Source of the DNA: a virus
DNA length: 41,136 nucleotides
IMG/VR virus record: IMGVR_UViG_3300020421_000053
Span: 1 to 41,136 of that record
Strand: one strand, 5' to 3'
Under the pieces are notes generated by a model. The model was given only the letters and a program-made list of their open reading frames with translations. It did not search any database and had not been told where the DNA came from. A program made the position numbers and the translations under genes. This document shows, piece by piece, positions 2,072 through 34,799 of this stretch. The number at the start of each line of letters is the position of its first letter. The stretch's first letter is position 1.

Positions 2072-3700
2072 CTAAAATCCTTTGCGTACAACCGGATGCC
2101 AAACTGTACCATACTCATCAACTTCGGGCTTTTCGTGGTCTGGAGTACCATCATCTACGAAACCAAATGGCGCCATATCCTGTTCAATTAATGCCTGTTG
2201 TTCTTCATATAACATTTGTCTTGCGTTAGTATCTGTCATCTCCTTAAAGAAAGGTTGATTGGACAACCAACCAAATATGACTAAACACATCATTAAATCG
2301 TCTGTACAACCATCTTCAGCCTGCCAAGATTGTCCTTTTCTAACAAAGGTACTCATCTCTTCAATAATATTAAAATCGTTTACAAAAATCTTATCAGATT
2401 CTACAAGTGTTTTAATATTAGCACAACCTATTTTCTTAATTTGTTTGGTCATCTTAACACCAAAACCAGAACCTCTACCACTAAATCCGGCACCTAGTAT
2501 TTGACCAGCACGACCTCTTTGTGTTGTCATCAATAGATTATCATACTCTAATTCAAATTGTAATGCCTCTGCAATTTGTTGACCTAAATCATTTGTCTCT
2601 ACCATTATATGTGCGTGATTATAAGCCTTTGCAACTCTATCAATTGTATGAGGAAATAGTAAAGGTTTAATATCATTGTTTCTATATTTGGCCACAATTT
2701 TATATGGCATTTTACTAACATCTAACATCACAAAAGCCGAGTAATCTTTTTGTACACCTCTTGCTACGTCAACGGTACAAACATATGTATTACCTTTAAT
2801 AGGTTGTTCATATACATCTAAACCACCACTTGATTGAAGAGGAGTTTGAAAGGCCATTTGTTTAATTTTTGCTGGACTAATAAGTGTATTTACAGAACCT
2901 AAAAACTCACACTCAAACTCTTGTTGAAACTGCTCAGGTGAGGTGTTTCTAATTGTTCTTTCTTTCCATTCTTCGTCACGACCAGGTACTTCTGACCAAT
3001 GTACTTCAATAGGAATATAATCGTTTCGTTTATTCTCTGCGTCATTCCATAGTTTATAAAACATATTCATACCCATTGGTGTGGATACGATAATCATTTT
3101 AGTTTTTTGTCCAGATGAAATTGTAGGATAAACTGAGCTAAAAAATGCCTCGGCAATATTAGCCGGTACGAAAGCAAACTCGTCAAGGAAGATGATGTTA
3201 AATGAACCACCTCGAATCGCACTTGATGATGTAGCAGCTGCCACAATGACTGACTTGTTTTCTAGTTCAATGTTACCTTTGTTCCAATTGATTACACCTT
3301 GTTGTAACCATTTTGGTAAATTTTCATAGGCAAGTTGTACTCTTCCAAGTATGTCTCTGGCAGTTGAAGATTTGTTAGCAAGTATAGCAATATTAGAATT
3401 AGGATTGAATAAGGCATAATGCAATAAGTAAGATACTGTTGTTGTAGATTTACCTGATTGCCTTGGCAATTTACAGATAGTAAATCTGTTATCGTGTATT
3501 GTCTGTACAATATGTCTTTGAAAGTCATACATTTTAAAAGGCACAAGACCATCATCTAACGATACAATACGGATATAATTTTCCATAAAGTATAGAGGGT
3601 CGTTAGCACACTTTTGATATTCTAAAATTTGTTCTTTAGTAAACTCTACTGGTGTGTTAATCTTTTTAAGATTAGGATTTCCTAGATATGCGTCTGTCAT
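2072..3700 (-). CDS. 17: terminase large subunit gp17
   Basis: This 542-residue protein is the DNA-packaging motor ATPase and nuclease (T4 gp17 has 610). The ATPase domain shows Walker A at 79-86 (PRQSGKST), Walker B at 168-174 (NIIFLDE, D173 and E174) and the coupling motif VSTPMG at about 205-210. The RNase-H-like nuclease domain shows TVDVARGVQKDYS (D311), the ETNDLG stretch near 368-373, and EDGCTDDLMM near 462-471 with the final acidic ligands. It acts with gp16 and the portal to cut and pump concatemeric DNA. The ATG overlaps the preceding gene's stop by 4 nt, implying translational coupling. Confidence 0.97.
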   Translation of the reverse strand: MTDAYLGNPNLKKINTPVEFTKEQILEYQKCANDPLYFMENYIRIVSLDDGLVPFKMYDFQRHIVQTIHDNRFTICKLPRQSGKSTTTVSYLLHYALFNPNSNIAILANKSSTARDILGRVQLAYENLPKWLQQGVINWNKGNIELENKSVIVAAATSSSAIRGGSFNIIFLDEFAFVPANIAEAFFSSVYPTISSGQKTKMIIVSTPMGMNMFYKLWNDAENKRNDYIPIEVHWSEVPGRDEEWKERTIRNTSPEQFQQEFECEFLGSVNTLISPAKIKQMAFQTPLQSSGGLDVYEQPIKGNTYVCTVDVARGVQKDYSAFVMLDVSKMPYKIVAKYRNNDIKPLLFPHTIDRVAKAYNHAHIMVETNDLGQQIAEALQFELEYDNLLMTTQRGRAGQILGAGFSGRGSGFGVKMTKQIKKIGCANIKTLVESDKIFVNDFNIIEEMSTFVRKGQSWQAEDGCTDDLMMCLVIFGWLSNQPFFKEMTDTNARQMLYEEQQALIEQDMAPFGFVDDGTPDHEKPEVDEYGTVWHPVVRKGF

Positions 3701-6355: not shown

Positions 6356-7162
6356 TTATCCTATAAGCATTGCTGGATTTAGTTCAAATGTGCTTCTAAT
6401 TTCAGTTTCTAACTTTTCTACGTCTTGTAAAGCTTCTGTATAAATTTGTTGCCCATTCAATGTAACTCCACCAATCATTGCAATGCCATTAAATTTTGCA
6501 AGATTAGCACCCCATTGTTTTTTAAACAAAGCAGTAACATATCTCTTTAAGTAAATGTCGTTATACACATCTGTGTACACGGTCGGATCCATCTTTCTAT
6601 AACACTCAATTACCAAGTATTCATCTACTTGTAAATCATTCTTCCAGTCCATATCAATGTACAGTCTGTTGTCGTGTTGATTATATCTTAATGGTTTTTC
6701 ACCAACTAGAATATGGTCCAAGAAGTCTAACTGTCTCATTACCACATCATAGTTAACTACAGAAGTTGAAGAAAAATCATAAAGGTCATTAAGTCTTAAT
6801 TGATATCTAACATCAAATAAATTTAAAGAACCTTTACTTGAAAAAGGAAAGATATTAACAACTGAAACAACACTATCAGGTACAACGATATATCCTTGTC
6901 CTTCTTCCCAAGCAGTAGTAACACCGTTTTTGGTTACCGACTCACTTGAATTTGTTGTTACTCTGTCTTTATCTGCTTGTGTGTATTTGTACTTTAGGTA
7001 AGTTCTACGAATTCCATCATAGTGGTACTGTGCGAAATATTGCAATGCTTCATCAATTCTATCTTCTAATTGATTATCGTCTGCGTTTATTTCAATAACA
7101 GGCTTACCTAATGCTCTTAAAGCATACTGTTTTAACTGTTCTCTACTTGCTGGTTCTGCCAT
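6356..7162 (-). CDS. 13: neck protein gp13
   Basis: At 268 residues this is somewhat shorter than T4 gp13 (309). Features of the head-completion/neck family include EQLKQYALRALGKPVIEINADD at the N-terminus, then DRIDEALQYFAQYHYDGI, and a C-terminal helical segment, YVTALFKKQWGANLAKFNG, followed by GGVTLNGQQIYTEA. It helps close the packaged head and provides the tail attachment site. The ATG has AAGGGA upstream and a perfect late promoter at 7182-7189, so it heads the neck-terminase transcript. Confidence 0.93.
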   Translation of the reverse strand: MAEPASREQLKQYALRALGKPVIEINADDNQLEDRIDEALQYFAQYHYDGIRRTYLKYKYTQADKDRVTTNSSESVTKNGVTTAWEEGQGYIVVPDSVVSVVNIFPFSSKGSLNLFDVRYQLRLNDLYDFSSTSVVNYDVVMRQLDFLDHILVGEKPLRYNQHDNRLYIDMDWKNDLQVDEYLVIECYRKMDPTVYTDVYNDIYLKRYVTALFKKQWGANLAKFNGIAMIGGVTLNGQQIYTEALQDVEKLETEIRSTFELNPAMLIG

Positions 7163-7223: not shown

Positions 7224-8246
7224 TTAAAATTTATACTTAATACTTGCTAATACCTGTTGAGTATCAGTGTAATCTGCACCAGTAAACGTTGATACACCAC
7301 CTTTGTCGTGGAAATATAACCCTACTTCTGTAACTTTATTGTCGTAAACTGCACCAAAATAATTACCTGTATAACCTAGGTCATCATTCTCTGTTCTATG
7401 TGCTGTCAAATAAGTATTATCAGTTGTGTTCCACATCATACCATAATCGTATCTGTTTTTGCCTGCCTGAGCGCCTGTGTCTTTGTCGTCCCACATTTCA
7501 GCACCCCATTGAACAGGAACACCCCAACGTCTTAATGAACCACCAACGGCAAATCCTTCTTGTTTAGTATCTTTAGAATAACCAGCTGCGTCACTCGGTG
7601 TTTCAATCACCATGTATGAAGCGTCTGCTAATCCTAAAAGACTAACGGTACCGTTGTAATAATATGTATCTCTATCGTTATCAAAACCAACTACAATACC
7701 CCAAGGTTTATCTTTTTGTAGTCTATATGATTCCATTTGAAACTCATCATTCCAAACAAAACCACCGACTGCAAGAACAGTCTTCTCGTTGTGGTCTAGT
7801 CTGTTATTTGGTTTTGTAATAATAATAGGAGCACCAATTTTAGAAGTCTTAGCAAATCCTAATCTTTGTGCGTCTGTTTCTCCCGTAAACAATCTAAAGT
7901 TATCGTTTCCGAAAAACATTTGTTTTTCAACTAAAGTATTGTTTTTAGTTGTATCTAAAGCATAGTGTGAATCAAACGATACACTTGCTCCAGCTTTGTT
8001 AATCAATGGCATGTCTAGGTCTGTACTAGCGCCTACTTGTAACTCTGCTCTACTATCCCAACCTGAGTCGTAAGTCTTATCATCATAAAATCCTTCAATT
8101 TCTCCGTTAAAGTATAGTCCGTTTGGTAAACTTAAACTCTGGTTTTCAAGTGCTGTCAGTCTATCATCAACCGACTTTGCTGTGCTGTCTGCAAAGGCAA
8201 CAGTAGTTACCATCAACAACATGAATGTTGTAAGTGTTTTTAACAT
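7224..8246 (-). CDS. outer-membrane porin-like beta-barrel protein
   Basis: This 340-residue protein has a clear signal peptide (MLKTLTTFMLLMVTTVAFA, cleavage expected after Ala19). A short coiled-coil segment follows (SVDDRLTALENQ), then a barrel of alternating polar and aromatic strands with many Tyr, Trp and Gly residues (for example GLYFNGEIEGFYDD and YDYGMMWNTTDNTYLTAHR). The chain ends VLASIKYKF, with the C-terminal phenylalanine that outer-membrane proteins use for BAM-dependent insertion. This matches trimeric Gram-negative porins in length and architecture. It has its own late-promoter variant and AGGAG site and is flanked by late genes. Replacement or supplementation of a host porin during infection is inferred from the fold. 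Which solute it passes cannot be read. Confidence 0.85.
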   Translation of the reverse strand: MLKTLTTFMLLMVTTVAFADSTAKSVDDRLTALENQSLSLPNGLYFNGEIEGFYDDKTYDSGWDSRAELQVGASTDLDMPLINKAGASVSFDSHYALDTTKNNTLVEKQMFFGNDNFRLFTGETDAQRLGFAKTSKIGAPIIITKPNNRLDHNEKTVLAVGGFVWNDEFQMESYRLQKDKPWGIVVGFDNDRDTYYYNGTVSLLGLADASYMVIETPSDAAGYSKDTKQEGFAVGGSLRRWGVPVQWGAEMWDDKDTGAQAGKNRYDYGMMWNTTDNTYLTAHRTENDDLGYTGNYFGAVYDNKVTEVGLYFHDKGGVSTFTGADYTDTQQVLASIKYKF

Positions 8247-8268: not shown

Positions 8269-8276
8269 TATTTATG
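8269..8276 (-). promoter_or_regulatory. late promoter variant (CATAAATA) for porin gene
   Basis: CATAAATA on the minus strand, one base from consensus, overlaps the end of the bilin reductase gene. It lies 22 nt before the porin ATG, with AGGAG in between, so the porin can be expressed late independently of the upstream operon. Confidence 0.65.
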
Positions 8277-8955
8277 TTTTAGGAAACAAGTTGTCCGTGC
8301 AAAATGTCTTTACATCTTCCTCTGGTAATCCTAGTGTTAACATAACCCTCGGTGTATGAGGATTTTGTTGTTGGTGTTCACAATAATAATTTTGTGCCTT
8401 GATAATTTCTTCCTCATTGCCTGTATTATTGTATTCTACAATATCATCTAAGTATTCTTTAAGTTGTCTTTCTACAAGTCCACATAGAGTATTGATTTCT
8501 TCCTCTGTATTAATATTTCCAGCAGCTATCATGCCTGGTGAAAATATTTTCAGAGCCCAATCTGGCAACTCTCGTTGTTTAATTGGTTTAAACTTCTCAT
8601 TTATTCTAATAAATTTTTTAGTCATGTCATGGTCTTTAACTAACATAGGCGACCAATCATAAAATGCTCCGGTCACTTTATTCTTACCTGCAATTACGTC
8701 CCAACCGAAAATTGGTCCGTCATTGTGTTTGTCTGGAAAAATACATACATGCATCATCCAAAGCCCTTTGGTATTTCTAACGTCAACTATATCAACATGA
8801 GCTCTACGTACACTTTCATTATGCCATGTACGATTAACCCAACCTAACTCTTCATTATTAAATCTTTCCATACCCTCTTCAGCGTATTCTTCACAATGAA
8901 AATTTAATGTCTTAATTATCTTTTCGCTGTTGAGTAATAATCTTTCCCAAATCAT
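8272..8955 (-). CDS. pcyX: ferredoxin-dependent bilin reductase, PcyX-like
   Basis: A 227-residue member of the ferredoxin-dependent bilin reductase family (PcyA, PebA, PebB, PebS, PcyX), which reduces biliverdin IX-alpha to phycobilins. Visible family motifs are RRAHVDIVDVRN (51-61), the WMMHVCIFP strand (66-74) and GPIFGWDVIAG (80-90). By my alignment His69 and Asp86 match PcyA His88 and Asp105. FSPGMI follows at 138-143, and NPHTPRVMLTLG near the C-terminus. The Met1 chosen has GGAG 7 nt upstream; a longer reading to 9015 lacks this support. The gene overlaps the heme oxygenase by 44 nt, so substrate supply and use are coupled. PcyX enzymes known from uncultured marine phages make phycoerythrobilin in a four-electron reduction. 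Assignment to PcyX rather than PebS rests on this context and needs a phylogeny. Confidence 0.87.
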   Translation of the reverse strand: MIWERLLLNSEKIIKTLNFHCEEYAEEGMERFNNEELGWVNRTWHNESVRRAHVDIVDVRNTKGLWMMHVCIFPDKHNDGPIFGWDVIAGKNKVTGAFYDWSPMLVKDHDMTKKFIRINEKFKPIKQRELPDWALKIFSPGMIAAGNINTEEEINTLCGLVERQLKEYLDDIVEYNNTGNEEEIIKAQNYYCEHQQQNPHTPRVMLTLGLPEEDVKTFCTDNLFPKT

Positions 8956-9505
8956 ACATTTCTCCAAATAATCTTGTTGCAAAGATAAAACAATTCTGTG
9001 TTTCAGTACGTACATCTTCCTCGTACAAACTTAAATAAGAATGTATTACTTCTCTAACAATTGGTTTATAAGTCTTGTGTGCTACATCTTTAAACGTGTA
9101 AAATCTATTAGGACCAGGTGTTCTTTTTTTAATCATCTGGCCACCAGATAAATCTCCTAAATGTCTTACATATATATGTGAATAGAGTTTGTGAGCGTCT
9201 TCTTTCATACCCTCAACATGTCTAATATAGTCTTTTGTACTTTGTGTAATAATAGGTAATTCTTTATCATCTTTCCACAATGCTTTAAAATCATACAATA
9301 AATGCTCTGTTCTTTCTATACCTGGTGTATGTCTAAACAAAGAATTTTCTTGTGCGTATTTTTCTAATACAGCATAACATTGTGATTGATTGTAAAGGTA
9401 AGTAGCGTATACCTTTTCATCTATCTCACCACTCATTAATACTTTTACAAACTCTTTACGTTCAGCAGCCTTATGCCACTCATGTGTTATGTCTTTTATA
9501 TCCAT
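8912..9505 (-). CDS. ho1: heme oxygenase (biliverdin-forming)
   Basis: A 197-residue soluble heme oxygenase, which opens heme to biliverdin IX-alpha, CO and Fe2+ using reduced ferredoxin. The N-terminal helix DITHEWHKAAERKEF places the proximal heme ligand at His11 (the HxxAE pattern). The distal helix carries the family signature HLGDLSGGQ at 115-123. ATG at 9505 is preferred over the in-frame ATG at 9544 because AGGAG sits 7 nt before it and the HO fold starts right there. It overlaps the permease end by 10 nt and the bilin reductase by 44 nt. It lacks the C-terminal membrane anchor of animal HO-1 and is close to bacterial and phage forms in length. Confidence 0.94.
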   Translation of the reverse strand: MDIKDITHEWHKAAERKEFVKVLMSGEIDEKVYATYLYNQSQCYAVLEKYAQENSLFRHTPGIERTEHLLYDFKALWKDDKELPIITQSTKDYIRHVEGMKEDAHKLYSHIYVRHLGDLSGGQMIKKRTPGPNRFYTFKDVAHKTYKPIVREVIHSYLSLYEEDVRTETQNCFIFATRLFGEMYDLGKIITQQRKDN

Positions 9506-10527
9506 AATAAAACTCCTGCTGTTGCGATTAATAGTGTTGACCAACCTGTCAAAATCATACCATATGTAGATAGTTTGGTACCAAAATACATCTTACCAAT
9601 CGCTACGCATTTGTGCATAGGTGACATAACATATCCAGCAAAGTCAACTGCAAAAAACCATGGTAAATATTCCATACCATATATTGATGTAAGTAATACT
9701 GTAATTGCTCCAAATCTACTTGATGAACCTAAAGCAAAGGCACCAAGAAATGATAGTAAACTGATTGCAATAAAACCAAATGTTGTTGTTATGTCTAAAC
9801 CTGTAGATTGTAAGAAAGAGTTAATCTCGCCTGTGTGTGTTCTTACAACGTTAGATAGAAAAATAATACCTGCGACCCAAGCCACAATTTTCCAATCAAC
9901 ATAACCTATTAGTTTTTTGAAATCAAATGTCTGTGTAACAATCATGTAATATGCTGTTAATAGACCAAATGCCCATAAGAAGTTTACACCAGCAATAATA
10001 GCTGCGACACCTAGTAAATATGGTAAAACGTATCGTGTAATTCTACTTATTTTAATTTTTTGTTTACTATTCTTTAATGCAATGTCTTTATCTTTTACTG
10101 CAAAAATAAGATAACTTAAAACATATACAACCGTCATTGCTAACAACGGCCAAATTATTCCTATAAAAGCACCATATGATAAACCAAATGCAGCCATAGG
10201 TAAGATAACAGTCTTTTCTAAAGGAGACCAGAAATAATAATGGTGTGTTGACATGAAATCAATAGGTCCAAACTTCTCTCTACTCTTTTTATTTTTAGGT
10301 GCCATTGTGTCTAATAGTCCAGCAGATACAGTCACACGACCTTTGATAGGTAATATTCCTGTCAATGCACTGAACATTGCTACAATAGCTCTGTTACTTT
10401 TAATACTTCTTTTTAGAAATGTAAATACATCACTAAACAAATTGTTGTCTTTAATCATACCTGCTATCATCATCACAAAGACAATAAGAAACAAATAGAC
10501 TTGTCCTTTTAAAATTAAATCAATCAT
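9496..10527 (-). CDS. DUF401-like polytopic membrane permease
   Basis: A 343-residue integral membrane protein with about ten hydrophobic segments, beginning at residue 10 (VYLFLIVFVMMIAGMI) and ending with the last 20 residues. Two re-entrant-like motifs fit the DUF401 family, relatives of gluconate/anion permeases: TGILPIKGRVTVSAGLLDTMAP (about 56-77) and, near the C-terminus, FAGYVMSPMHKCVAIGKMYFGT, like the family's 'LSPvHLC..eYF' motif. The substrate is unknown. It overlaps the upstream oxygenase by 4 nt (ATGA) and the heme oxygenase by 10 nt, so it belongs to the bilin operon. Transport of a tetrapyrrole, precursor or anion connected with that pathway is a hypothesis from position only. 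Confidence 0.75.
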   Translation of the reverse strand: MIDLILKGQVYLFLIVFVMMIAGMIKDNNLFSDVFTFLKRSIKSNRAIVAMFSALTGILPIKGRVTVSAGLLDTMAPKNKKSREKFGPIDFMSTHHYYFWSPLEKTVILPMAAFGLSYGAFIGIIWPLLAMTVVYVLSYLIFAVKDKDIALKNSKQKIKISRITRYVLPYLLGVAAIIAGVNFLWAFGLLTAYYMIVTQTFDFKKLIGYVDWKIVAWVAGIIFLSNVVRTHTGEINSFLQSTGLDITTTFGFIAISLLSFLGAFALGSSSRFGAITVLLTSIYGMEYLPWFFAVDFAGYVMSPMHKCVAIGKMYFGTKLSTYGMILTGWSTLLIATAGVLLWI

Positions 10528-11117
10528 ATTGTTAACTCCGTTAAATCGTTATAGTCGCCAAACTTACCTTTAATAAAAGTATTAAAAGAAATGCTGTGTC
10601 TGTCGCTATTACCTCTATTTGTATCCACATCATGTGTCAATGAAGAAGGAAACAATACCAATCTTCCAGATTGATTCTTTATACCAACTTTGTTTGCTGT
10701 GAAGTGGTTGCCTTTTTGTTTATCATAAAATGTGAAGTTGGCAAATGCTCCACTATTATAAAAGAAAGTAGGACAATCAGGTCCATCTACATATAATACT
10801 GCTGAAAAAATACTGTTAGGGTGCATATGAGAATGGTGTGATTCGTGAGGTTTACTTTTATTATACCATGAATTTGTTATATAAAAATCTACATCCTTTT
10901 CTTTACCTAATTGTTCAGCAAAGTTATTGACATTTGCCAAACACCAGTTTTTTAAATCAGATAGTACAGGATTATTAAAAATATTTTTATCTTTAGTTAC
11001 AGTATTGCCTCTGTTTGGCATAAATTCTAAACCATTTAGAAAATGTAATTGTTCTTTAGTAAACTCATAACAAGTATCAGATTTGTATATAGGTGTGGCG
11101 AATATTCCTTCAATCAT
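10524..11117 (-). CDS. 2OG-Fe(II) oxygenase family protein (copy 1)
   Basis: A 197-residue protein of the small phage/cyanobacterial 2-oxoglutarate and iron dependent oxygenase type. The N-terminus has the recurring GIFATPIY opening. The iron-binding strand is SHHSHMHPNSIFSAVLYV (His97 and His99 candidates). The distal motif is GRLVLFPSSLTHDVD (His162), followed by RHSISFN with Arg173 as the likely 2-oxoglutarate ligand. The substrate is unknown; relatives hydroxylate proteins or small molecules. It overlaps both neighbours by 4 nt. It shares its layout with the oxygenase two genes upstream (11826-12425), though sequence identity is low. Confidence 0.82.
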   Translation of the reverse strand: MIEGIFATPIYKSDTCYEFTKEQLHFLNGLEFMPNRGNTVTKDKNIFNNPVLSDLKNWCLANVNNFAEQLGKEKDVDFYITNSWYNKSKPHESHHSHMHPNSIFSAVLYVDGPDCPTFFYNSGAFANFTFYDKQKGNHFTANKVGIKNQSGRLVLFPSSLTHDVDTNRGNSDRHSISFNTFIKGKFGDYNDLTELTI

Positions 11118-25921: not shown

Positions 25922-25944
25922 GTAGTACATAATTGAGAAGTGAA

Positions 25945-26754
25945 ATGAACGTAACATATAATAATATTACTATACCATTCTATGACATGGAACAGATGAT
26001 GAACGCCTCGCCAACATCTAAAAAAGGCCTCGTTCTTAATTCAGAAGGCCTTCCAGAAAACATAATTGTATCACTTTCAGGTGGTGCTGATTCTGCCTCT
26101 GCATTATATCTTTCTTGTAAACATTATCCAAATTTACATTACTATCCTTTTACTGCAAGAGATATTGGTAACAATGCTCTTAAAGACGCCATCGCAGCTG
26201 ATAAGATAGTTAAGTATATTCAAAATAAATTTCCACATGCAAATCTACATGACATTGAAACTTTTGATTTCAATGATAGAGACGAAAAAGTTTGGATTGA
26301 AGCACAAAAGGCTATTGATGGTGTATCAGATGACCCTAAATTATCAAAAGATAAAGATGAATATAAAAAGTTAAATGTTATTCAAATGTCTAAGATAATC
26401 TTAATACATGAAATATGTGAACACATGGTTAAGAAGTTTGATAGACCTATGATGTTAGATGGTCTTACCGGTAATCCACCACCAGAGGCACTAGAAACTT
26501 TTGGTAATAAAGGAGAAGATAGACGTAATCATTATAGAGATAGAGTTAGATTAAAATACAACCGTTACAAACCATTTCTCAATGTAGATAAAAAGTTTGT
26601 AGCAGATATTTACAAACAAAATGACATTATGGATTTATTTGAAATGACACGTTCTTGTACAGGTACAGCAAAAGATACAGATAACTACACCAGAGAATGT
26701 CATAAATGTTTTTGGTGTTATGAGAGAAAATGGGCATTTGATTTAGTATGGTAA
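25945..26754 (+). CDS. QueC-like PP-loop ATPase
   Basis: A 269-residue N-type ATP-pyrophosphatase. SLSGGADSASALYL (43-56) is the PP-loop (SGGxDS, 45-50). The C-terminus has four cysteines spaced Cys238-X13-Cys252-X2-Cys255-X2-Cys258, followed by an ER pair, the zinc site of QueC (7-cyano-7-deazaguanine synthase). QueC adenylates a carboxylate and uses ammonia to make a nitrile; related enzymes form amides or thioamides. No queD, queE or folE homologue is in the window. The gene heads a glycan-type cluster, so a different substrate is possible. ATG at 25945 (GAGAAG upstream) is preferred to the in-frame TTG at 25933. Confidence 0.78.
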   Translation: MNVTYNNITIPFYDMEQMMNASPTSKKGLVLNSEGLPENIIVSLSGGADSASALYLSCKHYPNLHYYPFTARDIGNNALKDAIAADKIVKYIQNKFPHANLHDIETFDFNDRDEKVWIEAQKAIDGVSDDPKLSKDKDEYKKLNVIQMSKIILIHEICEHMVKKFDRPMMLDGLTGNPPPEALETFGNKGEDRRNHYRDRVRLKYNRYKPFLNVDKKFVADIYKQNDIMDLFEMTRSCTGTAKDTDNYTRECHKCFWCYERKWAFDLVW

Positions 26755-27764
26755 AAGTTAATATAGTATGTACTAGTAAACCTTGTGATGGACTATTGTA
26801 TTATAGTTATGAACATTGTACTTATTTAAGGTCAATTGGTATTGACGCTCAAGTTGTTTGTGTACCACATCCTAGAGGTATTGTTTCTGAATATAGAAAT
26901 GCACTGATACGAAAATATGGTCATGCAAATAACGTTATCGTAAATAACTATCTACCTAAAAATGATGAGATAACAATGATTATGGGTAGAAGTATGTTAA
27001 CTCTACCACATAAAGTTAGAAAAGAATATAAACGTAATCAGTTACTATCGTTACATTTATTATTCTCTAATAAAATTGTTGCCGTATATTCGGAAAATCA
27101 TCCTGTTGATTATCCTAGAGCAGTAGCATATTGGTCACCTAAAAAGATATGGGATTTATGTGATTATGATGTTTATCCAGAGGGCGAAGGAGAACACTTT
27201 AAAAAAGTAATCAACTTCTCTATGTACAAACCATGGAAAGATGAGATACAATATGATTATCTATTCAATGGTGTAAATGAAAATTACTATGCGTCAATTG
27301 AAAAGTATATACACCTGGAAAATCCAGACCACATTATGTTTGGCGAAAGAAAAGTTACCGAATTACCTTTTTATGAAGGCCAAGGCTTTGAATACAAACC
27401 TGTCTCCACAATTAAGAACTTTAAATCACATGCAATCTTAACGTTAAGTGATAAGTTAGTTAGAAATAACAACTATCACAATCCAGATTTAAATAACGTG
27501 ACAGTACCAGTTAAAAATATACTAGGTTCTTTTGATACGTATGTTTACGTTAAAGAAGGATTTGACCCAGCACCAAGACTAATGATGGAATGCAAATACT
27601 TCAAAAAGAAAATGATATTTCTCAGAGACGATAGTATAGTAGATGGTGGTAGTGCTTATCTAAAAAGAGAAAGTTACTGTCTAACATCACCAGAGAATAA
27701 AGAGAATAATGACGTATTAGTAAAAGCAATAGAGGAGGCAGCCAGTGAAAACGTTACTAGTTAG
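26748..27764 (+). CDS. probable GT-B-type glycosyltransferase
   Basis: A 338-residue protein. The N-terminal half looks like a nucleotide-binding alpha/beta domain (VNIVCTSKPCDGLLYYSYEH, then YLRSIGIDAQVVCVPHPRG). In the C-terminal half, VYVKEGFDPAPRLMMECKYF, then KKKMIFLRDD, resembles the GT-B donor-site helix and following strand ('E-x-x-p-x-l-x-E-a-x-x-x-x-k-p-v-i'). No signal peptide or membrane span. It overlaps the PP-loop gene by 7 nt and the SGNH gene by 20 nt. The family is not certain; a different alpha/beta enzyme is possible. Confidence 0.6.
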   Translation: MVKVNIVCTSKPCDGLLYYSYEHCTYLRSIGIDAQVVCVPHPRGIVSEYRNALIRKYGHANNVIVNNYLPKNDEITMIMGRSMLTLPHKVRKEYKRNQLLSLHLLFSNKIVAVYSENHPVDYPRAVAYWSPKKIWDLCDYDVYPEGEGEHFKKVINFSMYKPWKDEIQYDYLFNGVNENYYASIEKYIHLENPDHIMFGERKVTELPFYEGQGFEYKPVSTIKNFKSHAILTLSDKLVRNNNYHNPDLNNVTVPVKNILGSFDTYVYVKEGFDPAPRLMMECKYFKKKMIFLRDDSIVDGGSAYLKRESYCLTSPENKENNDVLVKAIEEAASENVTS

Positions 27765-28377
27765 TGGATGTTCTTGGACAGACCCTAATTTTGAATCTGT
27801 ACATCATCCAGAAATGGATACATCATGGAAAAAATGGCCTGAAATACTTGCTGAAAAACTAGAACTTAATTTAGTTAACGTAGCATGGTCTGGCTCAGGT
27901 AATCAATACATTTATACTTCATTATTAGATAAGATTGTAGAGTTAGATGTAAATGATATTGCTTTAGTTATTGCTGGTTGGTCAAAAGGTTGTAGAAGTG
28001 ACTTTGAGCAAGATGGCCGAAGAAAAAATATAATGCATGATAATAGAGGTGATGTTGATTATTTTATTAAAAGAAATTTAAGATATTTTTACAGTTTACA
28101 GACTGTGTGTGCATATCATAATTTGCCACTAAAACAGTTTCATATGTTACACCCTTTTAACAATCCAGGTGTAAACAAATTAGATGGTATAAAATCGTCA
28201 TTGAGTAATCATTACCAAGACAAACTTAATTTTATGGGTTATTCTGGCGAACCACAAATAGGTGGTTGGACTATGAGTGACTTAATACAACAAAGTGATT
28301 TTATATCTGAAATAGATAGGCACCCTAACAAAAAAGGGCAAGAAAAAATAGCAGGAATATTACATGAAAATATATAG
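27745..28377 (+). CDS. SGNH/GDSL-type hydrolase
   Basis: A 210-residue protein. Block I is LLVSGCSWTD (nucleophile Ser10). SGSGNQY gives the oxyanion Asn53, with a Gly just before it. Block V is DRHPNKKGQEKIA with Asp191 and His193 as the remaining catalytic residues. The family includes sugar O-acetyl esterases and acyltransferases. In this cluster, removing or moving an acyl group on a glycan is plausible. The start is GTG at 27745 with a strong AGGAGG site 6 nt upstream, inside the end of the preceding gene (20-nt overlap). Confidence 0.8.
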   Translation: MKTLLVSGCSWTDPNFESVHHPEMDTSWKKWPEILAEKLELNLVNVAWSGSGNQYIYTSLLDKIVELDVNDIALVIAGWSKGCRSDFEQDGRRKNIMHDNRGDVDYFIKRNLRYFYSLQTVCAYHNLPLKQFHMLHPFNNPGVNKLDGIKSSLSNHYQDKLNFMGYSGEPQIGGWTMSDLIQQSDFISEIDRHPNKKGQEKIAGILHENI

Positions 28378-29881
28378 CGTTGCACTAAATCTACATGACC
28401 AAAATACATATGATGGTGTCTTTCATAAACAAATGGAAAGATATACTAGATTTAAACACAACATACCTTATCATGTTGACGCATATGCTCATCATAATGA
28501 GGGCGATAAATTAAACGTTGATGATTACAGATTAAACTTTAATTTTGTTGAAGAATATTTTGAGAAATTTCCGAATAAAATTTTGGCGTTTTCCTACACT
28601 AATGGTGGTATCAGACACCTTAAAGATTCGTTGTTTAAAGGTATGCTTGTAGCTCATAAAGAGATACTTGACTATGAACCTAAAAAGTTGTTTGACAGAT
28701 ACTATAAAGATGAGATATACTATATTGACCACCACCAATCTCATGCCACTTATGCTTTCATAAACTCTGGTTTTGACAAGTCAGATATACTTGCCATTGA
28801 CGGAATAGGCGCTAAGTATAGATGTATCTTTGTAGATAAAGATGAGAATATAACAGACTTATCTAAAGAGTTACCACTTGGTTGGATATGGAATCAAATG
28901 TCTAAACTAACAGGTTTCGGTCCGTTAGGTGCAAGTAAACTTATGGGTTTAGTTGCATATGGTAAATATAGTGAATATTATTACAATGCATTTGAAATGA
29001 TAGCAGATGATAAGAGACGTGAGAAGTCAAATCATATGCATAAAGAATTGAATATTGAGAAGTATGGTAAAGAAGACTTGGCGTTTACACTACAGAAATT
29101 TACACTTGACAAAATCAAAGAACATGTATATCCACTAAAGACTTGTGAGAACATATGTCTATCTGGTGGTGTTGCATATAATGGTTATATGAATGAAGAG
29201 TTTACTAAACAATACCAAAATGTGTACGTTCCTCCTGCGATAGGTGATGAAGGACAGGCGCTGGGTACATATCAACACGCTGACTATACAATTAATGGTA
29301 ACCGACACAAAACAAACGTATTTGCTGGTAAAGAGTGGCCGTATAAACTATCAGATGAGAATGTTGACCTAACAGATATAGCACAATCTATTGCTGATGG
29401 CAAGATTGTTGGTTGGTACAATGGTAAGTCGGAAAGTGGTAATCGTGCCTTAGGTAATAGAAGTATTTTAGCAGACCCACGTAATCCTAATATCAAAGAT
29501 GTAATCAATCATACAATCAAAAAGAGAGAAGATTTTAGACCATTTGCACCTGCTGTATTAGAAGAACATTATAAAGAATACTTTGACACAAATCAACCTA
29601 GTCCATATATGTCTAGGATTTGTAAAGTAAAAACTGATAAGGTTCCTGGTGTTACACACTTGGATAATACTGCAAGAATACAAACAGTCAATAGAAAATT
29701 CAATCCTGATTTCTATGAATTAATCAATGAGTTTTATAAAGTGACAGGTATACCAATGTTATTGAACACTAGTTTTAATTGTAGAGAACCTATTGTTGAA
29801 ACACCACAACAGGCATTTAAAACGTTCAAAAAAACAGACCTAGATATATTAGTAATAAATGGTAAGGTGCTTAGAAAATGA
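28364..29881 (+). CDS. NodU/TobZ-family carbamoyltransferase
   Basis: A 505-residue protein with both domains of the family. The N-terminal Kae1/ASKHA-like domain shows DHHQSHATYAF (122-132, His123, His124, His127), AIDGIGA (144-150) and LSGGVAYNGYMNEEF near 266-280. The C-terminal YrdC-like domain shows GNRALGNRSILADPR near 363-377, IKKREDFRPFAPAVLEE, and NTSFN near the end. These enzymes make carbamoyl-AMP from carbamoyl phosphate and ATP, then transfer the carbamoyl group to a hydroxyl of a sugar, nodulation factor or antibiotic. O-carbamoylation of a glycan is the expected role here. It is somewhat shorter than usual (about 550-600). Overlaps are 14 nt upstream and 4 nt downstream. Confidence 0.9.
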   Translation: MKIYSVALNLHDQNTYDGVFHKQMERYTRFKHNIPYHVDAYAHHNEGDKLNVDDYRLNFNFVEEYFEKFPNKILAFSYTNGGIRHLKDSLFKGMLVAHKEILDYEPKKLFDRYYKDEIYYIDHHQSHATYAFINSGFDKSDILAIDGIGAKYRCIFVDKDENITDLSKELPLGWIWNQMSKLTGFGPLGASKLMGLVAYGKYSEYYYNAFEMIADDKRREKSNHMHKELNIEKYGKEDLAFTLQKFTLDKIKEHVYPLKTCENICLSGGVAYNGYMNEEFTKQYQNVYVPPAIGDEGQALGTYQHADYTINGNRHKTNVFAGKEWPYKLSDENVDLTDIAQSIADGKIVGWYNGKSESGNRALGNRSILADPRNPNIKDVINHTIKKREDFRPFAPAVLEEHYKEYFDTNQPSPYMSRICKVKTDKVPGVTHLDNTARIQTVNRKFNPDFYELINEFYKVTGIPMLLNTSFNCREPIVETPQQAFKTFKKTDLDILVINGKVLRK

Positions 29882-30492
29882 TAATGTTTGATGAAAAATA
29901 TTTCCAAAAAGTATTAAGAGAAATTAAGAATGATGGCCTAAATCAATCAAAAAGGTTATTAGATTCTTTAAGTCCAATACAGTTTGAATCTAAAAGTAAA
30001 CTATTAGAAATGGTTGATGAATATATTGAAAAGTATTCTACAGTCACAGTTATGGGTTGTTGGTTTATGTCTATAGTTGGTTATGTATTATCTCAAAAGG
30101 TTAAGTACGTACAAGGTATTGACTTTGACGATAGAGCTACTAGAATGGGAAGAAGATTGTTTGATGGTATTGACAACGTAGAATTTGTAAACAAAGATGT
30201 ATTTAAAATGCCTACTGAAAAGATGATACTATCTAATCTTATTATCAATACATCATGTGAACATATGCCACCAATGAAAGAATACCCTTATTGGGATAGA
30301 ATGAGTAAAGATACTTATTTTGCATTTCAAACTCACACAAACGATAATATAAATGACCACACCAATTGCGTTACATCTTTAACACAATTTAAGGAACAAA
30401 TACCAGACACATGGGAAATATTAAAACAGGATGTATTAGAAGACAAAGACAGAGGCGGTCACAGATATACTTTAGTAGGAAAGATAAAATGA
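29878..30492 (+). CDS. degenerate class I methyltransferase-like protein
   Basis: A 204-residue Rossmann-like protein. Where motif I should be it reads VTVMGCWFMSIVGYVL, without the usual G-x-G-x-G. The acidic motif II, QGIDFDDRATRMGRRLF, and DNVEFVNKDVFKM are kept, and the NLIINTSCEHMPPMKEYPYW stretch fits the motif IV region. It may bind a different cofactor, or be a methyltransferase with an altered loop. It overlaps the carbamoyltransferase and the next glycosyltransferase by 4 nt each (ATGA), so it is co-translated. An alternative ATG lies at 29884. Confidence 0.65.
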   Translation: MIMFDEKYFQKVLREIKNDGLNQSKRLLDSLSPIQFESKSKLLEMVDEYIEKYSTVTVMGCWFMSIVGYVLSQKVKYVQGIDFDDRATRMGRRLFDGIDNVEFVNKDVFKMPTEKMILSNLIINTSCEHMPPMKEYPYWDRMSKDTYFAFQTHTNDNINDHTNCVTSLTQFKEQIPDTWEILKQDVLEDKDRGGHRYTLVGKIK

Positions 30493-31307
30493 AACGTGTA
30501 ATATATAGTTTATATATTGATATACCTACAGACAAGTTAGACCAAGTTGTTGACTCTGAAACAAAGGCACAATTTAAAGAACACTATACACGTCTTATAG
30601 AATGTAAGAAAAAGTATGCCAAAGATATTGGTGTAGAATTTATCTTATTTGAGTATGATGAAAAGTATAAACAATTTGCAAAGACAATGCCACCAGAAAT
30701 TACAGATTATAATATTGTAAATTTCTATAAGTTACATTTATTATATGAACTTAATAAAGAATATGATGAGATATTATATTTAGATTTTGATGTTGTACCT
30801 ATGAAATCAATTAGTTTCTTTAATATATTTGATTTAAAAAAAGGTATTGCAATCAAACATAATAATGACCTAGTTAAAAAGATTGACCAAATAACAGATA
30901 CATCACAATCAATTAGAAGTCCTACATCAAAGTATTACAATGCTCAGGCCATGTTGATTGAAAAAGGATTTAGTCCAGAGAATGATGTAATCAATACAGG
31001 CATTATTGGTATTAATACAGAATGGTTAATTAGACTTAGATACTTCTATGGTTTTAAGAAAGACCTAGAACTAATGACAGAAGTTAAAAATGATAGTGAT
31101 ATATTTCCAGAGAGAATTAGAAACTTCTTTGGTTATGATAATGAAACATTGTTTGCTGTTAAATTGAAACAACATAAAATACCAATACAATTTTTACCTG
31201 AAGATTGGCATTATCATTTTGATAAACAAGGTTTTATACCAGATAATATACATTTAGTACATACAATTAATAAAGATTTTGATTCAGTCTGGAGAAAATA
31301 TGCTTAA
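30489..31307 (+). CDS. GT-A-type glycosyltransferase
   Basis: A 272-residue protein. ILYLDFDVVPMK holds the DxD metal/nucleotide-sugar motif (Asp99-x-Asp101), preceded by NIVNFYKLHLLYELNKEYDE, the usual helix before that motif in GT8-like enzymes. NTGIIGINTEW and a late WHYHFD/HLVHTINKD region fit the acceptor and metal-binding C-terminal parts. It is cytosolic with no membrane span. The ATG at 30489 overlaps the previous stop by 4 nt; a longer reading from 30411 lies inside the upstream gene and was not used. Confidence 0.8.
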   Translation: MKRVIYSLYIDIPTDKLDQVVDSETKAQFKEHYTRLIECKKKYAKDIGVEFILFEYDEKYKQFAKTMPPEITDYNIVNFYKLHLLYELNKEYDEILYLDFDVVPMKSISFFNIFDLKKGIAIKHNNDLVKKIDQITDTSQSIRSPTSKYYNAQAMLIEKGFSPENDVINTGIIGINTEWLIRLRYFYGFKKDLELMTEVKNDSDIFPERIRNFFGYDNETLFAVKLKQHKIPIQFLPEDWHYHFDKQGFIPDNIHLVHTINKDFDSVWRKYA

Positions 31308-32088
31308 GATTTGTTGTGTTTATTTTGGTGACCGATATTCTCCTGACTATGTGACAAAACTATACAATAGTATCAAAAGAAACTCAACTGTTGATTTTGA
31401 GTTTGTTGTTATATCTGATACTCAATACGGCAGTAGATTGATAGATACAAGGTCCAGTCAACATCATATAACACAGTTTGGAGATATTGCAACAGTATTA
31501 CCTTATAATCATTTAACAGATATTAAAAAACATTGGCATAAACTAAAATTCTTTGCACCTAACTTTGCCAATCAAAAACCTGGTGATGATATTATTGTTA
31601 TGGATATTGACCAGATTATTACAGGTAATATAGATGAACTATTGAATTGGCCTGTAAAAGAAAAAGAATTATTAACATACGGTGTGTGGTGGGAAAACAA
31701 ACTAGGTATTAATGGTGGGTTTTATAAGTTTAAATCAGGCAGTTTAAAGTTTGTGTGGGACGATTTTATTAAAAATCCTGAATTCTGGCAAATGAATTTT
31801 TATAATAAAGGTGATGTTCATGTACCACTATATGGCGAACAAAACTATGTCAAATGGAAAATACAAGAACATAATGCTACATTAACTAAACTTCCACCTG
31901 AATGGTTGGGAACATGGACAGATAGTTACAAAAAGAACTTACAATTGAATCAAATATATATGGAAAGATTTGATACAGATTATATGATAATGGATGATGT
32001 ACATAAAAATATTAAAGTCGTACACTTTGCTGGTGTAGGTAAAACTATAACAGGTAACGACAAGTTTATTAAGGATAATTGGAAATGA
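31300..32088 (+). CDS. GT-A-type glycosyltransferase
   Basis: A 262-residue protein. The N-terminus ICCVYFGDRYSPDYVTKLYN is a typical GT-A nucleotide-binding start. IIVMDIDQIITGNIDEL contains the DxD motif (Asp102-x-Asp104). INGGFYKFKSGS and the C-terminal VVHFAGVGK, with its His, fit the remaining pattern of GT8/GT24-like enzymes. It starts at ATG 31300 after a GGAG site, overlapping the previous gene by 8 nt; a TTG further upstream is less likely. It is the second glycosyltransferase of the tandem pair. Confidence 0.8.
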   Translation: MLKICCVYFGDRYSPDYVTKLYNSIKRNSTVDFEFVVISDTQYGSRLIDTRSSQHHITQFGDIATVLPYNHLTDIKKHWHKLKFFAPNFANQKPGDDIIVMDIDQIITGNIDELLNWPVKEKELLTYGVWWENKLGINGGFYKFKSGSLKFVWDDFIKNPEFWQMNFYNKGDVHVPLYGEQNYVKWKIQEHNATLTKLPPEWLGTWTDSYKKNLQLNQIYMERFDTDYMIMDDVHKNIKVVHFAGVGKTITGNDKFIKDNWK

Positions 32089-32714
32089 TACCACATGCTG
32101 AAAGAGGTGTTAACGTTGACCTATCTGCTAGGTGTACACTACAATGTCCTATGTGTAGTAGAACTAAAATACTAAAAAAAGGACTTAAAGTGCCTGGTGA
32201 AGATGTAACATTTGAACAGTTTAAAAAGATTGCTGATTACTTTGGTTATATTAATTTCTGTGGTCAAGTTTCTGACCCGTCAATGAACCATGACTTTATT
32301 AAAATGTTAAGGTATCTGGAAGAAAAAGGTCACAAGGTATCTATACATGTAGCTGCCTCTCATAGATTAGAGAAATGGTGGAACGAAGCCTTTGACGCAA
32401 ACACAAAAGCAAGGTGGGTTTTTGGGATAGATGGTTTACCAAAAGACAGCCACAAGTATCGTAAAAACCAGGATGGCGAGAAATTATTTCGTATGATGTT
32501 ACTTGCAAAAAGTAAAGGTCTTAATTGTGTATGGCAATATATTGTATTTAATTATAATGAGAATGATATAGAAGAGGCAAAATCAATCGCTAGAAAACAT
32601 GACATTAAATTTGATTTATTAGTTACTTCTAGGTTTACAGATGATGACCCTCTACTACCAACAAACAAAAAGTTTGTGATGAGCAGACCTAGTATAAGGA
32701 CACATAATGACTAA
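32085..32714 (+). CDS. radical SAM enzyme lacking its own SPASM domain
   Basis: A 209-residue protein. VDLSARCTLQCPMCSRTK gives the radical SAM CX3CX2C cluster motif (Cys17, Cys21, Cys24). The rest has the half-barrel pattern: FCGQVSDPSMNHDFIKML resembles the GGE-like region, then VSIHVAAS, FGIDGLPKDSH (a 'S-i-D-g' strand) and YIVFNYNEN. The chain ends where most relatives continue into a SPASM domain; that domain is encoded by the next gene. It overlaps the previous gene by 4 nt and the next by 8 nt. The reaction is unknown; epimerisation, dehydrogenation or peptide modification are all known for the family. Confidence 0.83.
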   Translation: MIPHAERGVNVDLSARCTLQCPMCSRTKILKKGLKVPGEDVTFEQFKKIADYFGYINFCGQVSDPSMNHDFIKMLRYLEEKGHKVSIHVAASHRLEKWWNEAFDANTKARWVFGIDGLPKDSHKYRKNQDGEKLFRMMLLAKSKGLNCVWQYIVFNYNENDIEEAKSIARKHDIKFDLLVTSRFTDDDPLLPTNKKFVMSRPSIRTHND

Positions 32715-33603
32715 AAAATTCAGACCAAAATGTGTACAGTTTGATAGACAAATGGCCTTTACATCAACCGGTTTTGTTGTACCTTGTTGTTGGATTGATA
32801 GTCCTGGTGGAAGAAAAGACGCAACGTTAAAACAATTCTATCAAAAAGATATGCATATTGACAACTTTGATTCAATAGATGATATAATAGATAGTCCTCT
32901 TTACAAAGATTGGTTTGATATGTTAGTAAATAAACCCGAACTAGCACCAAACTATTGTAAACATTTTTGTTCTACAACATCTTTAGATAAACACCCCACT
33001 AAAACTAGTCTATCAACCGAACAAGTGGACTTTGATAGAGTTATTGTTGCTAAATGGGGAGAAAAATATAATAGTTGGCATGTAAATAATCTTAAATTCA
33101 TGCTTGACAATTATTCAGGTATAAAGTATAATAACTTTGTTGTATTTGAAAAAGATACCTTTGGTAATATGTACAACAAATTAGAAATCTTTAATGACTA
33201 TAAAGATGGTACAAATCTATACTTAGATTTAGATATGGTAATTTATGATAAGTTGCCTAATTTAGTTAGAAAAGATTTTACTTTAATGTATGACTGGTGG
33301 CGAGAAGAACACCATACACCTCTAAACTCTTCTATGGTTTCTTGGACTGGCGATATATCTCATATCTATAAAAAGTTTGTAGATAACAAAGAGTATTATC
33401 TAAAGAAATATCCTACAAGTATTGATGAGTTTTATTATCACGAAATAGAATATAAGACTTTTGATAAAGTTTGTTATTCAATCAAAGAACATGAGTATGA
33501 CAAAGAACCTATGAAAGGTTTTGGTCTATGTACATTTGGTCAAATGCAACACTTATTAGAAGATGGTTGGTCTGGTTGGTGGTCTAAGTATCTAAACAGT
33601 TAA
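32707..33603 (+). CDS. SPASM-domain protein fused to a GT-A glycosyltransferase
   Basis: A 298-residue two-part protein. Residues 1-95 look like the C-terminal SPASM region of a radical SAM enzyme: RPKCVQFDRQMAFTSTGFVV, then PCCWID, the helix SIDDIIDSPLYKDWFDML and NYCKHFCS, with Cys9, Cys27, Cys28, Cys84 and Cys88 as Fe-S candidates. From about 108 it is a glycosyltransferase-like domain: RVIVAKWGEKYNSWHV, then NLYLDLDMVIYDKL (DxD at 174-176). The gene starts in a different frame from the radical SAM gene and overlaps it by 8 nt. The SPASM domain would act in trans or as a complex. It is the last plus-strand gene and overlaps the convergent minus-strand gene by 20 nt. Confidence 0.75.
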   Translation: MTKKFRPKCVQFDRQMAFTSTGFVVPCCWIDSPGGRKDATLKQFYQKDMHIDNFDSIDDIIDSPLYKDWFDMLVNKPELAPNYCKHFCSTTSLDKHPTKTSLSTEQVDFDRVIVAKWGEKYNSWHVNNLKFMLDNYSGIKYNNFVVFEKDTFGNMYNKLEIFNDYKDGTNLYLDLDMVIYDKLPNLVRKDFTLMYDWWREEHHTPLNSSMVSWTGDISHIYKKFVDNKEYYLKKYPTSIDEFYYHEIEYKTFDKVCYSIKEHEYDKEPMKGFGLCTFGQMQHLLEDGWSGWWSKYLNS

Positions 33604-34075
33604 TGGCGGCTTGAATTGCCTCAATCTTTGTTTTAGATTTTCTAATTGCTGTCTTCTGTTCCATATTATCGGAATCTCTAACATCATCAATTTCAAATAA
33701 GGCAAGTTTCAATGCAAACAAATGGTCTGCATTTCCTTTATCTTCAAATATAGATTTAACTAGATACGGATAAAACTTTGTATCAATTTTGTTTTGGTCA
33801 AAGATAAGTCCTTCTTTCTTTGCAATATCAACAATCTGTGCCTCAAATTCAGCACGGTCATTTTTTATTTTTTGATAAGTAATCTCATGTAGTTTATCAA
33901 GGTCAATATACTCTATTAAGTTTTTATAGTCTTCATTATCCTCGTTAAAAGGAATAATCATTGCATTTACTTCCTTTTTATCAGGTGTAGAAGTTAAAAC
34001 TTCAATGTTCTTTCTCTCATTGTCAATAAAGTATGCTGTAATAAGATTTGTTGATAATACTTCTTTAGTTAACAT
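33584..34075 (-). CDS. conserved phage protein, unknown function
   Basis: A 163-residue, charged, soluble protein. The N-terminal half is a small alpha/beta unit (ITAYFIDNERKNIEVLTS, then NAMIIPFNEDNEDYKNL). The C-terminal half is helical (EITYQKIKNDRAEFEAQIVD and ADHLFALKLALFEIDDV). No catalytic motif is recognised; small proteins of this kind recur in marine T4-like phages. It overlaps the epimerase gene by 11 nt and ends 20 nt inside the convergent plus-strand cassette. Confidence 0.7.
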   Translation of the reverse strand: MLTKEVLSTNLITAYFIDNERKNIEVLTSTPDKKEVNAMIIPFNEDNEDYKNLIEYIDLDKLHEITYQKIKNDRAEFEAQIVDIAKKEGLIFDQNKIDTKFYPYLVKSIFEDKGNADHLFALKLALFEIDDVRDSDNMEQKTAIRKSKTKIEAIQAAINCLDT

Positions 34076-34799
34076 TTCTATGTTCCTCTATATAATCATA
34101 TATGTTTGTTTTTGCTTCCCAGCCATAAGATTGTAATACGTCTGTATTGGCAAGATTATCTTCACGTTCATGTTCGTCACCTATAACTGGTGTATATTCT
34201 ATTTGAAATCTACTAACAATTTCAGAAAGTAAATTAGTTTGTCCTGTACCTACATCAATAACACCTCTTAAATCGGTGTCCATAACTGTAGTAATAGCGT
34301 CTAATACATCTTCAACATGAATAAAATCTCTACTGTGATTTGTATTAAGATATTCTATATTGTTATTTAATATTTTAGGTATTAACATAGTTTCTGGCGC
34401 ACCTCTACCATAAACTGTAGTAAATCTTAAACCTAAACTATCATAAGGTTCTGCTATTTGTTCTAATGAAAATTTACTCATTGCATATGGATTTCTCCAT
34501 GGTTCTGCAGCTGTACTAGAACTAGCGTAAATGATTTTTGTATCTTTAAAGTTTTCAAACAATCTTTGACTAACAATACAGTTTTGTTTCCAGTATTCAG
34601 TAGGATTATCTAAACTTTTTCTAACACCAGATAAACCTGCTAAATGTATTACTAAATCTACATGATAGTTTAATGGACAATCCATTAAATCATTACCAGA
34701 TTTAACATCTATTCCTGTTATGTTGTGATTGAGTTTTTTTAAATGTGAATGTAGGTGTGTACCTATGAAGCCATCACTGCCTGTTAATAATATATTCAT
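34065..34799 (-). CDS. NAD-dependent nucleotide-sugar epimerase/dehydratase
   Basis: A 244-residue extended short-chain dehydrogenase. TGSDGFIG (6-13) is the NAD-binding Gly motif. The active site has YASSS (91-95) with the catalytic Ser, and Tyr105-x-x-x-Lys109 in NPYAMSKFSLEQIAEPY. LRFTTVYGRG and RDFIHVEDVLDAI are sugar-nucleotide epimerase motifs. Length is short for GalE-like enzymes (300-340), mainly in the substrate domain. It probably converts a nucleotide sugar for the glycosyltransferases in the plus-strand cassette, although it is on the opposite strand with its own late promoter. Confidence 0.9.
   Translation of the reverse strand: MNILLTGSDGFIGTHLHSHLKKLNHNITGIDVKSGNDLMDCPLNYHVDLVIHLAGLSGVRKSLDNPTEYWKQNCIVSQRLFENFKDTKIIYASSSTAAEPWRNPYAMSKFSLEQIAEPYDSLGLRFTTVYGRGAPETMLIPKILNNNIEYLNTNHSRDFIHVEDVLDAITTVMDTDLRGVIDVGTGQTNLLSEIVSRFQIEYTPVIGDEHEREDNLANTDVLQSYGWEAKTNIYDYIEEHRNVN

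Follow-up and report, generated by a model that had tools for sequence, protein, structure and literature searches.

A heme oxygenase and PcyX-type bilin reductase gene pair in a marine virus genome related to the SAR11 phage Mosig

The gene pair and its neighbours

The window analysed here is the whole 41,136-nucleotide stretch, positions 1 to 41,136 of the marine virus record IMGVR_UViG_3300020421_000053. On its minus strand lie a heme oxygenase gene (hemO, 8912 to 9505, ATG at 9505, stop codon ending at 8912, 197 amino acids) and, downstream of it, the gene of PcyX, a ferredoxin-dependent bilin reductase (pcyX, 8272 to 8955, ATG at 8955, stop codon ending at 8272, 227 amino acids). The 3' end of hemO and the 5' end of pcyX overlap by exactly 44 nt (8912 to 8955, minus strand). 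The reading frames, the strand, the coordinates and the length of the overlap had been described in a first-pass annotation of this DNA, and all proved exact in the sequence. The overlap was also computed to be 44 nt in the five closest relatives (L002-L006), and over all loci 23 nt is the commonest length. The motif ggagaaa within the hemO gene (8959 to 8965, minus strand) is a likely ribosome-binding site for pcyX, and it also precedes pcyX in most relatives whose upstream sequence was viewed. The likely ribosome-binding site for hemO, aggag (9513 to 9517, minus strand), is located within the adjoining transporter gene. A longer, mechanically defined reading frame would start the reductase at 9015; this start was rejected, its extra part being hemO DNA in another frame. 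We prefer the start at 8955 because its column contains Met in 81 of 82 relatives, the remaining relative having a gap there, and because the extension only reads hemO DNA.

The two genes are confirmed as real and intact. Chance is excluded by the Pfam and PDB E-values given below, by the invariance of key residues in 82 loci and by the low ratios of nonsynonymous to synonymous substitutions. For those close pairs that allowed scoring, dN/dS (NG86) was 0.04-0.17 for pcyX and 0.02-0.17 for hemO, values that indicate strong purifying selection on both.

Upstream of hemO, a gene for a membrane transporter of DUF401/CitMHS type (TIGR00529-type; 9496 to 10527, minus strand; PF04165, E=4.3e-11; phrog_14035, E=1.5e-77) overlaps the start of hemO with its last 10 nt. 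Of the 15 loci with the transporter, 14 have heme oxygenase as the next gene, with overlapping ends. Distant homologues of the transporter occur in a few cyanophages; in the stretches viewed, from one ACG-2014j isolate and MbCM1, no pcyA was annotated beside the homologue. Further upstream, in the same island of auxiliary metabolic genes (AMGs), is a gene for a 2OG-Fe(II) oxygenase (10524 to 11117, minus strand; PF13759, E=7.2e-21). On the other side, between pcyX and gp13, the window encodes an outer-membrane porin with an apparent signal peptide (7224 to 8246, minus strand), recognised by AlphaFold2 modelling and Foldseek. The model, which is of modest confidence (pLDDT 61), has 16 strands, and the sequence ends in a C-terminal Phe. 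The top Foldseek match was the Rhodopseudomonas blastica porin (1.9e-11), and the best PDB matches were porins of that species; no match was found among the 50,697 phage records searched. In all 15 loci with the porin gene, it directly follows pcyX. The gene that is conserved to the right of the cassette encodes the gp13 neck protein (6356 to 7162, minus strand; phrog_211, E=1.5e-44; 81% identity to Mosig).

Across the 82 loci the transporter was found in 15, the porin in 15 and both in five, and neither was matched in 34 related gp13 loci lacking pcyX. The corresponding Fisher p values (0.005 and 0.002) are nominally significant but confounded by relatedness and by the missing AMG island; the absence from the 34 loci may mean little because in these it is mostly tail-fibre genes, not the AMG island, that stand beside gp13. 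The transporter and the porin are accessory, not universal, and an obligate transporter-hemO-pcyX-porin unit was rejected, as the two flanking genes coincide in only five loci.

Identity of the two enzymes

The heme oxygenase matched the Pfam family PF01126 (E=1.8e-20) and heme oxygenases in the PDB (E down to 1.4e-13); a search of NCBIfam gave no match. The first-pass annotation had recognised the HLGDLSGGQ motif and the proximal-His helix in one protein, and we found both: the proximal helix reads THEWHKAAE, with His11 invariant across the relatives, and HLGDLSGGQ is a distal-helix motif of GDxSGG type, of which GDLSGGQ is kept in the relatives. Profile, proximal His and distal GDxSGG helix, the features by which the family is recognised, are all present. 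A single-sequence AlphaFold model of the protein had a pLDDT of 36.5, and no conclusion rests on it.

The reductase matched PF05996 (E=2.5e-21), and its best PDB match was the crystallised PcyX, 5owg ('PcyX_EBK42635', E=4e-95). In NCBIfam it matched the PcyA equivalog with a score far below the cut-off. We built a tree of ferredoxin-dependent bilin reductases (FDBRs) with 35 rows, including PcyA, PebS, PebA, PEBB and PcyX references; the PDB-derived PcyA, PebA and PEBB rows consist of the protein core only, the program flagged long branches, and the tree contains no full-length cyanobacterial or alphaproteobacterial PcyA. In this tree the window reductase and 5owg belong to a clade with 100/100 support, which unites every PcyX row with three PcyX-like rows from metagenome-assembled genomes (MAGs), and the window reductase lies outside the PcyA, PebS, PebA and PEBB clades. 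It adjoins the protein of contig L005 (86% identical), within a sub-branch (93/99) that also contains L059 and L035. The protein had previously been called PcyX-like and a phylogenetic placement proposed; it falls among the bilin reductases, within PcyX together with 5owg and away from PcyA and PebS, which supports the earlier identification.

Asp55, His69 and Asp86 of the reductase are each invariant in 82/82 phage loci. The numbering of His69 and Asp86 in the first-pass annotation was correct and both residues are conserved; Asp55 is present, too. At alignment position 55 PcyX has Asp, and the PcyA rows have Glu (Glu76 of PcyA); Asp55 has been named the PcyX-specific catalytic residue (PMC11480375). 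Of the active-site positions suggested earlier for inspection, Asp55, His69 and Asp86 are kept, and the column of PebS Asp206 has Pro. This last position is not applicable to PcyX, because the other PcyX rows viewed also carry Pro there. Pro likewise stands in the window reductase where cyanobacterial PcyA carries its C-terminal Asp. We rejected identity with PebS (other clade, Pro at the Asp206 position) and with PcyA (Asp at the Glu76 position, placement in the PcyX clade).

The chemistry of the two families is established: heme is converted to biliverdin, CO and Fe2+, and biliverdin is then reduced to phycoerythrobilin. The reactions of the window enzymes would be those of their characterised relatives, and the expected product of the reductase is phycoerythrobilin, a pink pigment, because of its membership in the PcyX clade and the presence of Asp55. 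It is conceivable that the enzyme is instead of PcyA type and makes phycocyanobilin like the enzyme of the freshwater CB_2 phage. The sequences are similar, the reductase gene has a hemO neighbour in both cases, and the enzyme of the CB_2 cassette turned out to be a true PcyA (PMC11480375). The CB_2 enzyme, however, lacks Asp55, and its PcyA activity was attributed to that absence (PMC11480375), whereas the window reductase has Asp55 in place of the PcyA Glu and Pro in place of the C-terminal Asp, and groups with 5owg. We consider a PcyA activity quite improbable.

Phage type and distribution of the pair

The terminase encoded in the window is 89.5% identical to that of Mosig, 67% to that of Melnitz (an OM43 phage) and 65% to that of HTVC008M; gp13 and a tail fibre are 81% and 78% identical to their Mosig counterparts. 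The closest cultured phage is Mosig EXVC030M, which was obtained on Pelagibacter ubique HTCC1062 (SAR11) and has the same gene order. A SAR11 host is likely because terminase, gp13 and tail fibre are closest to Mosig, and the window virus, as judged from its genes, is probably a Mosig-like, SAR11-type T4-related myophage infecting SAR11. SAR11 is not known to make phycobilisomes, and the earlier suggestion of a host that may have none gains support from this nearest cultured relative. Marine hemO-pcyX contigs were already assigned to pelagiphages from a gp13 phylogeny in 2024 (PMC11480375). It must be noted that the final Mosig culture held two phages and that the completeness of the genome was estimated at 75.7% (PMC7892664); in host-range tests Mosig lysed HTCC1062 only (PMC9004378).

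Mosig carries the same hemO-pcyX pair (Mosig_00053/00054) in the same slot beside gp13, the pair being about 60% identical to that of the window (60% for the heme oxygenase). The surroundings differ: in Mosig 2OG oxygenases directly precede hemO, gp13 directly follows pcyX, and the cassette is without the DUF401 transporter and the porin, both of which are present in the window. Elsewhere in the window (25933 to 34799) there is an island of QueC-like, carbamoyltransferase, glycosyltransferase family 8, radical SAM, SPASM and epimerase genes, whose order is like that in Mosig; it probably serves surface or small-molecule modification.

The two genes are rarely seen apart. For this comparison the heme oxygenase loci were collected by an alignment-based scan (a query with a single protein had given five loci). 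pcyX was downstream of the heme oxygenase gene in 75 of 76 testable heme oxygenase loci, heme oxygenase was upstream of PcyX in 71/71 testable PcyX loci, and gp13 was downstream of pcyX in 72 of the 74 loci tested. The sole heme oxygenase locus without pcyX within 520 bases downstream was L217, where the available sequence ends shortly after. At two loci, L045 (6218-8106) and L072, a 2OG-Fe(II) oxygenase gene is inserted between heme oxygenase and pcyX. In a census of gp13 neighbourhoods, 30 of the 64 contigs with enough upstream sequence had pcyX, 34 had neither gene and none had heme oxygenase alone; the census drew on the 80 nearest gp13 sequences, which are not a random sample, and several of the contigs are near-copies of each other. 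Inspection by eye of twelve contigs without the pair showed tail-fibre-like genes directly before gp13 in most. The slot beside gp13 is fixed and the hemO-pcyX module in it is optional, both genes being present or absent together; we call it optional because roughly half of the contigs with the nearest gp13 proteins are without it. In one virus collection the oxygenase was confirmed in 521 stretches and the reductase in 433.

One genome scan for PcyX matched four MAG contigs; plasmids gave no match. One of the four, PBPT01000016.1 (L095, 335 kb), comes from a Neomarinimicrobiota MAG. It is viral, because a T4-type Gp23 capsid protein and a terminase share the contig with PcyX, and the presence of PcyX in a Neomarinimicrobiota bacterium was rejected: the contig belongs to a T4-like jumbo phage binned as bacterium. 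The remaining three matches are on contigs of only 7.7, 3.3 and 29.9 kb and may be bacterial or viral. The gene order in L095 (5564-8681) is small heat-shock protein, ClpS-like protein, heme oxygenase, nitrilase-like protein and PcyX; that in L098 resembles it, and L096 shows the L095 order without the nitrilase. A contig labelled 'Rickettsiales' is similarly arranged, with an extra ORF after the oxygenase and with pcyX cut by the contig end. The names of the small proteins and the nitrilase were assigned by eye from the sequences. The L095-type gene order is a second PcyX context.

It is instructive to compare the window pair with the systems described previously. With the PcyX EBK42635 (PDB 5owg) and hemO of uncultured marine phages it shares the family, the active-site residues, the hemO-pcyX order and the 100/100 clade; it differs in the sub-branch formed by the reductase with L005, L059 and L035, and in the flanking transporter and porin. 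With the hemO-pcyA/X-valaS cassettes (PMC11480375) it has in common a pelagiphage-type hemO and pcyX, but no alaS was recognised among the scanned window proteins. The cyanophage enzymes PebS (P-SSM2) and PcyA (P-SSM4) belong to the same FDBR superfamily, fall in separate clades and have other active-site letters, although PebS, like PcyX, makes phycoerythrobilin in one enzyme. The window pair is a well-supported further case of a published AMG pair, and its earlier description as the most interesting chemistry of this DNA was overrated: the pair, its enzymology and the link to pelagiphages are already in PMC11480375. The minor additions of our analysis are the coupling statistics, the flanking transporter and porin, and the second arrangement of the genes, on a T4-like phage contig of 335 kb. 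Taking identity, expected chemistry and phage type of the hemO-PcyX cassette together, we put the probability of this reading at roughly 0.87.

Possible roles of the pair

In the infected cell the heme oxygenase would open host heme to biliverdin IXalpha, Fe2+ and CO, and PcyX, with reduced ferredoxin of host or phage origin, would carry out a four-electron reduction of biliverdin via 15,16-dihydrobiliverdin to phycoerythrobilin. The overlapping genes and the internal ribosome-binding sites should keep the two enzymes co-expressed. Mosig has a gene for a 2Fe-2S ferredoxin (2701-3027; Fer2, E=1.4e-11) and so has an 86-kb relative. A phage ferredoxin was not found in a 177-kb relative or in the other contigs tested, i.e. 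in most of those tested; in many cases, therefore, the host must supply the electrons.

The benefit of these reactions might be that heme turnover frees iron for the many iron enzymes of the phage, while PcyX draws biliverdin away from the oxygenase. In several heme oxygenases the release of biliverdin is a slow step. The Mosig annotation lists many 2OG-Fe(II) oxygenases plus other iron enzymes. A 'putative ferrochelatase' of Mosig (Mosig_00059, L082:11357-12127) matches PHROG families of that name and no Pfam model at E 0.01, and the annotation looks doubtful. An iron-supply role was discussed previously (PMC11480375). We tentatively favour heme turnover for iron, with PcyX drawing off biliverdin, over light harvesting, at somewhat below even odds: iron supply would not of itself call for a four-electron reductase, and 2OG oxygenases also occur in other marine phages that do without hemO-pcyX. 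A heme oxygenase alone would suffice for the release of iron or CO, therefore the ever-present reductase needs explaining.

The same persistence of the reductase can be read to mean that the chemistry is as described and the bilin itself is the purpose, as chromophore, antioxidant or light signal for an unrecognised host or phage protein. In heterotrophs, pre-PcyA enzymes accompany bilin-binding globins (PMC10151467). However, a search of Mosig and eight other records, with controls that worked, revealed neither a CpeT lyase nor a phytochrome PHY domain, and no recognisable biliprotein was found among the window proteins scanned; we regard this possibility as serious but doubtful. Phage phycobilin genes were at first supposed to maintain the phycobilisomes of a cyanobacterial host, a proposal made for those of cyanophages (PMC11480375), and PcyX produced in Synechococcus made phycoerythrobilin that entered the phycobilisomes (PMC13197396). 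For the window pair such a role is very unlikely: the nearest cultured phage, to which terminase, gp13 and tail fibre are closest, infects SAR11, and the sampled cyanophage FDBRs fall in the PcyA or PebS clades. That roughly every second one of the closest gp13 relatives does without the pair would also be expected if the pair were decaying, or carried as a passenger, and had no function at present, but this is hardly credible in view of the dN/dS values, the invariant active sites, the intact frames and the fixed pairing over many contigs.

A more elaborate form of the favoured role, heme turnover for iron, would make the pair, in this branch, the core of a translationally coupled unit of inner-membrane transporter, hemO, pcyX and porin, in which heme or bilin is moved and degraded across the SAR11 envelope and the iron passes to the phage oxygenases. 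We think this improbable.

The window adds an intact example to an abundant and unexplained trait of marine viruses. Since the two genes almost always occur together, any account of this trait must cover the reductase and not only the release of iron or CO. With Mosig on HTCC1062 there is a cultured system that carries the pair, thus the use of a bilin in a host without phycobilisomes is directly testable.
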